From assembly GCA_951813575.1 (NCBI GenBank), contig OX638375.1, positions 992,001 through 1,056,000 of the forward strand: 64,000 nucleotides of DNA. The letters run 5' to 3'. A program made the position numbers and the translations under genes. This document shows, piece by piece, positions 37,335 through 45,294 of the stretch. Every line of letters begins with the position of its first letter. Within the stretch, counting starts at the first letter, position 1. The notes below the pieces were generated by a model. The model saw only the letters and a list, made by a program, of their open reading frames with translations. It ran no database searches and was not told the DNA's origin. The DNA comes from Candidatus Binatia bacterium (GTDB lineage Bacteria; Desulfobacterota; Binatia; UBA9968; JAJDTQ01).

Positions 37335-38123
37335 ATGGCCAGGATCCGCTACGTGGCCACCTTGAGCCGCGACCCCGACGCACTGGCGGGCTTCTACACC
37401 CAATACATGGGGATGAGTGAGTTGGGGCGCTCGCCGGAGGGCGACGTTTCCCTCACCGAGGGCCTCTACAACCTCACTCTGTTCCGCAAGCGGCAATCCC
37501 TGGGCGAGTTCCACATGCGTCACGGGCTGCATCACATCGGCCTGCAGGTGGAGGATCTCGGCGAGGTCCGGGCGCGCTACCAGAGGTTCAACCCCAGGGG
37601 CGTGGTAGTGACCGAACCCGGGGGCCTGCACCACGGCGCCATCCGCATCTTCGATCCCGAGTGCAATCCCGTGACCCTCTCGGAGGGGAGCTTCGGCGTG
37701 GACGAGGAAGGCGGGTACCCGCGCATCGCCCACGTCGCCTTCAACGCCCTGGACCCCGAGGTGATGCTCAACTTCTACGTGCAAGTGCTGGGGCTCCGGG
37801 AGGTGGAGAGCAGCTACAAGCGGCGGCGCAGCGGCCTGCTCAACCGTTTCGCGGGCGACGGCTCCACCAACCTGGCCATCCACCCGTTCTTCAACTCCAC
37901 CGTGGGCCACGAGCGCCGCTTCGGCGTGAACCACATCGGCTTCCTCGTAGACGACCTGGCCCAGAAGCTGGACGACCTGGGGAGCGTGGTGGCGGTCAAG
38001 GCGCGGCCGCCGGACCGGCCCTACGCCGAGTTCCGCTTCCGGGATCCCGAGGAGAACGCACTGGACCTGTCCCAGAACAAGGGATGGGAAGTAGACATCG
38101 ACAAGTGGGAACGGGCCGCCTGA
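37335..38123 (+). CDS. Two-domain VOC family protein, extradiol-dioxygenase-like
   Basis: The 262-residue protein has two vicinal-oxygen-chelate domains, each with an early His-containing strand: LHHIGLQVEDL in the first and AHVAFNALDPE and VNHIGFLVDDL in the second, with Glu in DPEENALDLSQ. The two-domain plan is that of type I extradiol dioxygenases, although the overall length is slightly short. GGAGG lies just before the ATG. It is the first of three genes (VOC, cupin, selenoprotein). Confidence 0.83.
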   Translation: MARIRYVATLSRDPDALAGFYTQYMGMSELGRSPEGDVSLTEGLYNLTLFRKRQSLGEFHMRHGLHHIGLQVEDLGEVRARYQRFNPRGVVVTEPGGLHHGAIRIFDPECNPVTLSEGSFGVDEEGGYPRIAHVAFNALDPEVMLNFYVQVLGLREVESSYKRRRSGLLNRFAGDGSTNLAIHPFFNSTVGHERRFGVNHIGFLVDDLAQKLDDLGSVVAVKARPPDRPYAEFRFRDPEENALDLSQNKGWEVDIDKWERAA

Positions 38124-38196: not shown

Positions 38197-38625
38197 ATGG
38201 CCATCGAAGTCATGGATCTGATGGACAAGGGGCGCAAGGACCTCAAGCGCGAGGTGGTGTTGAACACCAAGCGCTTCCACACCTGGGTGCACGTCTATCG
38301 CGAGCCCGGGGACAGGGACGACATGCATTGCCACAACGCCGACCAGAGCTTCTACGTCATGGAGGGCGAGTGCACCATGCACTTCCCGGACGGCGGCAAG
38401 GCGGTGATGACGCCGGGCATGGTGGCGCTCATCCACGGCGGCGAGTTCTACCAGCTCGAGAACACAGGCGCCGGCCCGATGATCCTCATGGGCAACCGGT
38501 CGGGGCCGTCCGAGGACATCAAGCACATCAACTACGAGCTGCGCAAGGACATCAAGGAGTTGCCCAAGGAAGACCGGCAACGCATCGGCAAGGGCGGCCC
38601 GGTATACGTCACCAAGGCCGGCTAG
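38197..38625 (+). CDS. Small cupin protein
   Basis: The 142-residue single-cupin protein has the first motif DMHCHNADQSFYVMEGECTMHF and second motif PGMVALIHGGEFYQLEN, with conserved His and Glu ligands. A cupin-type isomerase or dioxygenase is possible. ATG 38197 has GGAG 6 nt before it. The short AT-rich gap upstream (38124-38196) shows no clear promoter. The stop is separated from the next gene by 2 nt. Confidence 0.8.
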   Translation: MAIEVMDLMDKGRKDLKREVVLNTKRFHTWVHVYREPGDRDDMHCHNADQSFYVMEGECTMHFPDGGKAVMTPGMVALIHGGEFYQLENTGAGPMILMGNRSGPSEDIKHINYELRKDIKELPKEDRQRIGKGGPVYVTKAG

Positions 38626-38627
38626 AC

Positions 38628-39422
38628 GTGGCTCTCGACTACCTGCCCATTCTGGCGGAAAACGCGGCCCCCAGGCCGCCGCGCAAGCTGTACCGCGCAC
38701 CCCGCATCGGGTGGCAGCCCCTTGCGCGACCGCTGAACGAGATGCGCGTGAGCCTCGTTACAAGCGCGGCCATTCGCCACACCAACCAGCGCGCCTTTAC
38801 CGCGGGGGGCGACGCGAGCCACCGCCGCATCGCCGCGGATCCAGCGGTGGAGGTCACCGTCGACCATCACTCTCCCGTCGGCGCCGATGTGCGCAGGGAT
38901 GCCGCAGTGGTCTTTCCCAGGCGGGCGTTGCAGGAGCTGGCGCGAAAGGGTGTCATCGGTAGCGTGGCCCCCGCGCACTTCTCCATCTACGGCGGCATCG
39001 GCGACCACGCCGCCATCACCGAACGGTTGGCGCCCGAGTTGGCGCGGAAGCTCGCGGCCATGCGCGTGGACCTGGCGTTGATGGTCCCCTACTGACCCTA
39101 CTGCCACGAGACCGTGAGTCTCGTCGCCAACCTGGTGGAGGCCTCGGGCATGCCGACGCTGCTGATCGGCACGGTGCGCGACATCGTGGAGCGCGTCAAG
39201 CCCCCGAGGGCGGTATGCGTGGACAACCCCGTGGGCCGCACCTTCGGACGTCCCCGGGCGAGCCGCCGGCATGAAGCGCTGTTGGCCAAAGCCCTTGGAC
39301 ACGCCTACGGGTTCAAGCGCAAGGGGCAGATCATCGACCTGCCGGGCAACTGGACCGACCGCCCCGGGGCTTCGTGGCAAGATATGGTGCGAAGGGAGAT
39401 CCTGCGGCTGCCGCGCCGCTGA
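38628..39422 (+). CDS. GrdB/PrdB-like selenoprotein with in-frame TGA (Sec)
   Basis: Read through one TGA at 39093-39095, the frame gives 264 residues with selenocysteine at position 156 in VPYUPYCHETVSLV. The same position is usually Cys in the motif CPxCHQTV of the glycine/sarcosine/betaine reductase selenoprotein B-like family. N-terminal SLVTSAAI and PLARPL and the C-terminal VDNPVGRTFGRP fit the family. No other stop interrupts the frame. A 7-bp hairpin (39106-39112/39118-39124) starts 10 nt after the TGA. Start GTG 38628 lies 2 nt after the cupin stop. The TGA would otherwise be a nonsense mutation making two fragments (stop at 39095; restart GTG 39114). Confidence 0.78.
39093..39124 (+). 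promoter_or_regulatory. Bacterial SECIS-like hairpin with its TGA codon
   Basis: The TGA at 39093-39095 is followed after 10 nt by the stem ACGAGAC (39106-39112), loop CGTGA (39113-39117) and GTCTCGT (39118-39124). All seven pairs are Watson-Crick. The loop lies 18-22 nt after the codon and has a G as second base. These values fit the known bacterial SECIS pattern: stem directly 3' of the UGA, small loop with early G. Confidence 0.72.
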
Positions 39423-39503: not shown

Positions 39504-39640
39504 CTGGACCCCGGCTCAAGGCCGGGGTGACGTCCGGGTCAAGCCCGGGGTCCAGAGGCGCCCCTCCCCGTCACCCCGGCCTTGACCCGGGGTCCAGAGG
39601 CCCCCTCCCCGTCACCCCGGCCTTGAGCCGGGGCCAGAGG
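39504..39640. repeat. Tandem REP-like palindromic repeats
   Basis: The gap holds four related units built on TGGACCCCGG/TCAAGGCCGGGGTGACG: one in plus orientation (39504-39532), a variant (39533-39558), and two nearly identical 41-bp units CCTCCCCGTCACCCCGGCC...TTGA...GGGTCCAGAGG (39560-39600 and 39601-39640). Each folds as a GC-rich hairpin. A related copy lies at 49411-49451. Extragenic palindromes of this kind are dispersed repeats or RAYT-associated REPs. Confidence 0.8.
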
Positions 39641-44599: not shown

Positions 44600-44640
44600 T
44601 TGAGTTTGCCCCTCACATTTGGTAACCTATGCGTTACCAA
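44600..44640 (+). promoter_or_regulatory. Promoter with 8-6-8 inverted-repeat operator of the HigBA-type operon
   Basis: TTGAGT (44600-44605) and TAACCT (44623-44628) are 17 nt apart. A perfect inverted repeat TTGGTAAC (44619-44626), spacer CTATGC, GTTACCAA (44633-44640) overlaps the -10 box and probable start of transcription. Repression by the downstream antitoxin is expected. Confidence 0.55.
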
Positions 44641-44646
44641 TGGTCG

Positions 44647-44976
44647 ATGATCCGGATCAAAGAGTACATCGATGCCGACGGGCGCAGCCGTTACGCCGAA
44701 TGGTTTCAAAGCCTTGATGCGCGCGCCGCCGCGAAAGTCGCCACCGCGTTGGTCCGGATGGAGCAGAGAAACTTCTCCAATGTCAAAGGTGTCGGGAGTG
44801 GGATTTTCGAATACCGTATCGACTTCGGTCCGGGCTATCGGATCTACTTCGGGAAAGACGGAGATGAATGGGTTATCCTGCTTGGAGGCGGAACGAAACG
44901 CCGGCAACAGAGGGATATCGAAACCGCCCGAAAGTTATGGCGAGAGTACAGGAAGCGCAAGACACGGGAGGATTAG
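44647..44976 (+). CDS. RelE/HigB-like toxin
   Basis: The 109-residue protein MIRIKEYIDADGRSRYAEW, with FEYRIDFGPGYRIYFG and LLGGGTKRRQQRDIETA, matches the type II RelE/HigB family (addiction module killer protein). These cleave mRNA on the ribosome. ATG 44647 is chosen because ATG 44629 sits inside the operator repeat and no Shine-Dalgarno serves it. It abuts the antitoxin, toxin first, as usual for higBA. Confidence 0.85.
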   Translation: MIRIKEYIDADGRSRYAEWFQSLDARAAAKVATALVRMEQRNFSNVKGVGSGIFEYRIDFGPGYRIYFGKDGDEWVILLGGGTKRRQQRDIETARKLWREYRKRKTRED

Positions 44977-45294
44977 ATGGTCCTGACACGAGATTTCAAG
45001 GAAACCATCCGAGAGCGCGTTGAACGGGACCCAGCCTTTCGGGAGGCCCTCCTCACTGAGGGGATCGAATGCCTTCTCGCCGGCGACATAGACACCGGTA
45101 AGGCCGTCTTACGCGACTACATCAACGCAACGATCGGCTTTCATAAGCTCGGCGGACTGACTCACAAATCTCCGAAGAGCTTGATGCGTATGTTCGGTCC
45201 CGGTGGCAACCCCCAGGCCCACAACCTGTTCGAGATCATCGGCCAACTCCAGACACGTGAAGGGGTACAACTCAAGGTTCAGGCAGTCAGGTGA
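44977..45294 (+). CDS. HigA-like antitoxin/transcriptional regulator
   Basis: The 105-residue protein has FREALLTEGIECLLAGDIDTGKAVLRDYINATIGF, then LTHKSPKSLMRMFGPGGNPQAHNLFEII, the helix-turn-helix-like pattern of antitoxins paired with RelE/HigB killers. GGAGG lies 5 nt before the ATG and the start is the base after the toxin stop. Likely binds the inverted repeat at 44619-44640. Confidence 0.85.
   Translation: MVLTRDFKETIRERVERDPAFREALLTEGIECLLAGDIDTGKAVLRDYINATIGFHKLGGLTHKSPKSLMRMFGPGGNPQAHNLFEIIGQLQTREGVQLKVQAVR

Follow-up and report, generated by a model that had tools for sequence, protein, structure and literature searches.

The D-proline reductase of C. sticklandii works through two unlike subunits: D-proline is bound by the pyruvoyl group of PrdA, after which the selenol of PrdB attacks the alpha carbon of the substrate (PMC3091704). 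Kindred selenoproteins occur in the reductases for glycine, sarcosine and betaine (GrdB, GrdF and GrdH) and in fluoroacetate reductase (FarB; PMC10838667). Cleavage of the C-F bond of fluoroacetate by GrdB/GrdE homologues has been proposed (PMC10838667), and the superfamily may break bonds besides C-N. The selenocysteine (Sec) form of PrdB, with its UxxC motif, was reported in 2005 and 2008 to be among the most abundant marine selenoproteins (PMC1088965, PMC2398784). It outnumbered the Cys form by 42 to 1 in the Sargasso Sea survey (PMC1088965) and by 235 to 110 in the GOS survey, whose table assigns it to pfam07355 (PMC2398784), and Sec-PrdB is present in current selenoproteome lists.

The window that we analyzed, a stretch of 64,000 nucleotides, contains on its forward strand (positions 38628-39422) what is, on the evidence of comparative sequence analysis, a genuine selenoprotein gene of this kind. 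The gene begins with GTG, ends with TGA and has a predicted product of 264 residues with Sec at residue 156, the first position of a UPYC motif, encoded by the TGA at 39093-39095. When TGA is translated as U, this codon is the sole stop between the GTG at 38628 and the terminator at 39420-39422, and 108 sense codons lie between the two TGAs; the single in-frame TGA and the open frame beyond it that the preliminary description reported are thus borne out. So is its expectation that plain open reading frame calling would split the gene, as standard calling returns a TTG-initiated frame at 38328-39095 and a GTG-initiated frame at 39114-39422. The start at 38628 is supported by three relatives (L024, L027 and L029) that have ATG at the matching codon.

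The product had been described as GrdB-like, an assignment that we now correct. Its best profile is that of PrdB (TIGR04483; 132.2 bits, E 2e-38, residues 25-242), which is matched by all 49 aligned members of the family, although the score of the window protein does not reach the equivalog cut-off of 300 bits. The GrdB profile PF07355, in contrast, gives 18.8 bits against a cut-off of 22, and TIGR01918 gives 33 bits against a cut-off of 65 and covers residues 80-215 only, which places the protein outside full-length GrdB. What it does share with the PrdB/GrdB superfamily in the broad sense is homology in the Sec domain, with the UxxC motif in the form UPYC. The nearest described protein is PrdB, which is short, has a single domain and is related to the C-terminal part of GrdB; by profile and motif the product falls within the PrdB branch of the superfamily, with a predicted selenol-thiol pair. 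It is homologous to C. sticklandii PrdB over nearly the full length, with UxxC in both, and its Sec, at 156 of 264 residues, is close to the position in that protein, 152 of 242 (PMC3091704). It differs from PrdB proper in falling below the equivalog cut-off, in coming from a genome with no prdA above cut-off and in having no prd gene among the neighbors scanned. GrdB, GrdF and GrdH (PF07355, TIGR01918) and FarB belong to the same superfamily, use a Sec nucleophile and are matched by the window protein in their C-terminal Sec region, but they have about 430 residues, an STUG motif and a GrdE or FarE partner, whereas the window protein has UPYC and no adjacent partner.

An AlphaFold model built from the 49-row alignment (pLDDT 94.4) flanks Sec156 with a strand (149-153) and a helix (157-172); a model built from the single sequence (pLDDT 34) was discarded. 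Foldseek, run with the model against the PDB, returned no structure at E<=0.001, and searching the PDB by sequence brought up no credible match. As there is no solved structure like the model, its catalytic interpretation depends on analogy with PrdB and GrdB.

Taking all of the evidence together, we consider the best explanation, with a probability of roughly 0.85, to be that the gene encodes a Sec-containing protein of the PrdB branch that acts independently of PrdA within a catabolic operon of VOC and cupin genes. Sec156 would be the nucleophile and, by analogy, would attack the carbon of a C-N or other C-X bond, or else a peroxide or a disulfide. Cys159 would then resolve the intermediate as a selenenylsulfide, which would be re-reduced by a cellular dithiol system. 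Unlike D-proline reductase, the protein would, judging from co-occurrence, work without a pyruvoyl PrdA subunit, and in the genus it would probably carry out one step of the catabolic operon. If no pyruvoyl PrdA is needed, the substrate would not be D-proline bound as a pyruvoyl Schiff base. A partner acting in trans is nevertheless possible in this organism because the pyruvoyl-subunit family PF09338 has four members in its genome, including one orphan.

The two genes that precede the selenoprotein gene, on the same strand, encode a VOC protein (glyoxalase/extradiol-dioxygenase-like; 37335-38123; PF00903, 67.5 bits) and a cupin-domain protein (38197-38625; PF07883, 38 bits), the latter ending 2 nt before the GTG. 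In genus relatives that carry the selenoprotein gene the cupin gene is adjacent, collinear and 85-94% identical, and the order VOC-cupin-PrdB is kept; the three genes therefore probably belong to the same operon. The suggestion that VOC and cupin might share a pathway with the selenoprotein thus gains from synteny within the genus, but the link is lost beyond it. The other neighbors are, upstream, a divergent gene for an NMT1-type binding protein and, downstream, an ornithine-cyclodeaminase-like gene, an amidohydrolase gene and a molybdenum hydroxylase gene. Among order-level relatives, in seven genomes (L140-L146), a tandem pair of paralogs follows the PrdB-like gene; both encode TctC-like solute receptors of about 340 amino acids, and the two are about 50% identical to each other. 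On these grounds a catabolic role for the window gene is plausible.

Two further features of the window may be recorded. The intergenic region just downstream of the gene (39504-39640) contains palindromic repeats rich in GC (CCCCGGCCTTGANCCGGGGTCCAG and the reverse complement of that sequence); there are two exact copies, whereas chance would give none in the window. At 44629-45294 a gene for a Gp49/HigB-like protein (PF05973, 28.8 bits) is immediately followed by a 105-amino-acid open reading frame with no Pfam match, and the two are possibly a toxin-antitoxin pair.

The kind of reaction is a sub-question of the preferred explanation, for the selenoprotein reading is the same and only the chemistry differs. 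Rather than cleaving a carbon substrate reductively, the protein could have a detoxifying or redox role, as a peroxidase or disulfide reductase with a thioredoxin-like UxxC pair on a different fold. Such a role would suit both the UxxC pair and the want of an obligate partner gene, no neighbor is common to most of the approximately 85 loci compared (the largest cluster contains 13), and peroxidase activity has been reported for GrdB, according to the title of a work cited in PMC3091704. The neighbors conserved at genus and order level are nonetheless of catabolic or solute-binding type, which suggests a specific small-molecule substrate, and we regard a purely redox role as possible but somewhat doubtful.

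Does the protein instead serve as a true D-proline reductase subunit, paired with a pyruvoyl subunit of PrdA type whose gene lies elsewhere? Its best profile is, after all, that of PrdB, its size and Sec position are near those of the C. sticklandii protein (PMC3091704), and a candidate partner exists. Three of the four PF09338 genes sit beside genes for GrdB-type selenoproteins and none adjoins the PrdB-like gene, but the fourth is the orphan (C1:2819676-2820977; L148:7677-8978), which has no GrdB-like gene nearby and is 82-90% identical in six genus relatives, the same six also carrying the PrdB-like gene. Against this stand the TIGR04483 score of 132 bits, far from the equivalog cut-off, and the result for PrdA itself (TIGR04480), a pyruvoyl proprotein whose gene normally shares the operon of PrdB and for which the genome has nothing above the cut-off (25.6-38 bits against 700). 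Among the neighbors scanned, no prd genes (PrdC, PrdF racemase) were identified. Moreover, the orphan scores 210 bits with GrdG and 101 bits with FarE, both above its score with PrdA.

Co-occurrence argues in the same direction. A genome of the same order (G018) has a PrdB-like gene at 45% identity and no PF09338, whereas G012 presents the converse, with three PF09338-like matches and only a distant PrdB-like match. Of 28 genomes that encode Sec-PrdB relatives, most of them near-complete, 27 (G018 included) lack PF09338, which argues that the PrdB-like protein does not generally depend on a pyruvoyl partner; in the majority of these genomes identity to the window protein is no more than 33-45%, and clades could therefore differ in function. 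A partnership with the orphan GrdE-like gene is therefore unsupported by co-occurrence, and we set it aside. From these comparisons D-proline reductase function is unlikely for the window protein, and the version with a distant PrdA-type partner seems to us quite improbable; what the protein would be instead, we infer, is a stand-alone UxxC selenol reductase.

The PF09338 genes and their companions deserve mention in their own right. There is no invariant cysteine common to the four PF09338 paralogues, which casts doubt on whether some of them form a pyruvoyl group from Cys. The three GrdB-type genes (G000:C1:1377173, 768276 and 2588712; L151, L152 and L153) encode full-length proteins (TIGR01918, 435-491 bits) with one in-frame TGA each, in the motifs STUGTS, STUGTC and SAUGTC, and each lies beside its GrdE-like PF09338 gene; one of them is followed by a gene for a TctC-like receptor.

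We now turn to the evidence that the TGA at 39093-39095 is read as Sec. A search of 193 related genomes gave a match in 117, and among the matches listed nearly every full-length one has exactly one internal TGA. The nearest named record, at 84% identity, carries the label Candidatus Binatia bacterium. We also scanned contigs with the peptide pattern P[FVY]CH[EQ][TS]V[GS]L, which excludes the Sec position, and obtained 80 loci, labeled Candidatus Binatia, Acidimicrobiia, Gammaproteobacteria, Acidobacteria, Chloroflexi, Myxococcota, Rokubacteria and others. Together with 30 loci found earlier these make a set of 110 homologous loci carrying the motif, and TGA stands at the Sec codon in every one of the 110. 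The preliminary description had supposed Cys to be the family's residue here (CPxCHQTV), which we could not confirm: no full-length Cys version was seen among the matches listed for the 193 genomes or among the 110 loci. An exact TGY-pattern search of 395 genomes of the phylum, strict enough to miss divergent Cys forms, gave one match, CPECHQT, rejected as a Cys homologue because it has the look of a zinc-type CxxC motif that arose by chance. Three distant homologues have a second in-frame stop (G070:C13:15900-16604, two TGAs; G163:C30:12534-13244, TGA and TAG; G172:C120:7332-7928, TGA and TAA); these are possibly decayed copies or, for G070:C13:15900-16604, a double-Sec form.

The sequence beyond the TGA behaves as coding sequence. 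Among seven genus relatives, the changes after the TGA numbered 9-17, 2-7 and 28-36 at the first, second and third codon positions, respectively, over 106-108 codons, and this dominance of the third position indicates that amino-acid constraint continues past the TGA. The invariant residues in this part include C159, H160, G203 and G207.

Within the coding sequence, at 39106-39124 on the forward strand, lies a predicted bacterial SECIS hairpin with a perfect 7-bp stem (A39106-C39112 paired with G39118-T39124) and the loop CGUGA at 39113-39117. Counted from the TGA, the stem starts after 10 nt and the loop falls at 18-22 nt, exactly as the preliminary description stated. A scan with Rfam matched no SECIS model at the gathering threshold, and the isolated 61-nt segment folded no better than shuffled sequences (z -0.44). 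With so ordinary a fold energy the hairpin alone proves nothing, and it is the comparative evidence that is decisive. We therefore compared eight nested hairpin pairs over 99 distinct sequences, and the core 5 bp of the stem proved to be intact in 97 of them. In 1000 shuffles in which synonymous codons were exchanged within each column, the protein sequences being held fixed, the corresponding count had a mean of 40.7 and a maximum of 54; because shared ancestry stays in, these figures should not be taken as exact probabilities, but compensatory changes recur in many lineages. Likewise, 95% of stem cells are paired in the true register, as against 12-46% when the 3' arm is slid. The codon pairs that face each other across the stem are CAG-CTG (75), GAG-CTC (16) and CAA-TTG (6), for Gln or Glu with Leu, and TCC-GGA (46; Ser-Gly), ACC-GGT (28; Thr-Gly) and ACC-AGT (13; Thr-Ser, the form in the window). 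As judged from this alignment, the pairing is held by compensatory synonymous changes.

The machinery for Sec insertion is complete in this genome, a single contig of 4.21 Mb. The genes selA (585 bits), selB (378 bits) and selD (374 bits) lie side by side at C1:2675632-2679930, and selC (73 bits) specifies a tRNA-Sec with the anticodon UCA; the possibility raised earlier, that selA, selB, selC and selD might be missing, can be dismissed. SelD is itself a predicted selenoprotein, as its gene within this cluster (G000:C1:2675632-2676558) has an in-frame TGA near the N-terminus. SelB, bound to a SECIS hairpin, delivers Sec-tRNA(UCA) at UGA. In the window gene, SelB on the hairpin at 39106-39124 would bring that tRNA to the UGA, and because of this delivery Sec156 would be inserted and the full protein of 264 residues made.

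The central claim of a Sec-encoding UGA with its SECIS element is therefore supported by the invariant TGA, by the covariation of the stem and by the presence of all four sel genes. That the gene is a pseudogene, or that a sequencing error or an ordinary stop at 39093-39095 simply ends translation, is exceedingly improbable: the organism does use TGA as a normal stop, this same gene ends with one, and the local fold energy is unremarkable, but the codon is kept in every homologue across several phyla, the sequence after it is constrained and includes invariant residues, the stem covaries and the Sec machinery is complete.

Finally, we consider what the window gene says about its family. The "proline reductase PrdB" family of the surveys (PMC1088965, PMC2398784) resembles the family of the window protein in being Sec-dominated, in having UxxC and in being abundant in environmental bacteria, and judged by these shared features the two are very probably the same. 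The family is thus not new, Sec-PrdB having been described in 2005-2008, and the window gene is a further member of it; what is added to the surveys is a complete genome, operon context, a SECIS element tested by covariation and a test for the partner subunit. In the passages of the literature consulted, we found no statement that most PrdB carriers lack a pyruvoyl subunit. We think it likely that environmental "PrdB" selenoproteins are misnamed and form a separate, stand-alone lineage with no pyruvoyl subunit and a substrate other than D-proline, of which the window gene would be one instance. The label "proline reductase" implies a fermentation that most of the tested carriers cannot perform, since the pyruvoyl subunit is absent, and standard gene calling breaks the protein in two. 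With three GrdB-type selenoproteins beside GrdE-like genes, the lineage looks rich in Sec-dependent reductases. A widespread selenoenzyme is thereby opened to direct test: the gene is named, its operon context is described and there is a defined negative prediction, namely that the enzyme would not reduce D-proline.
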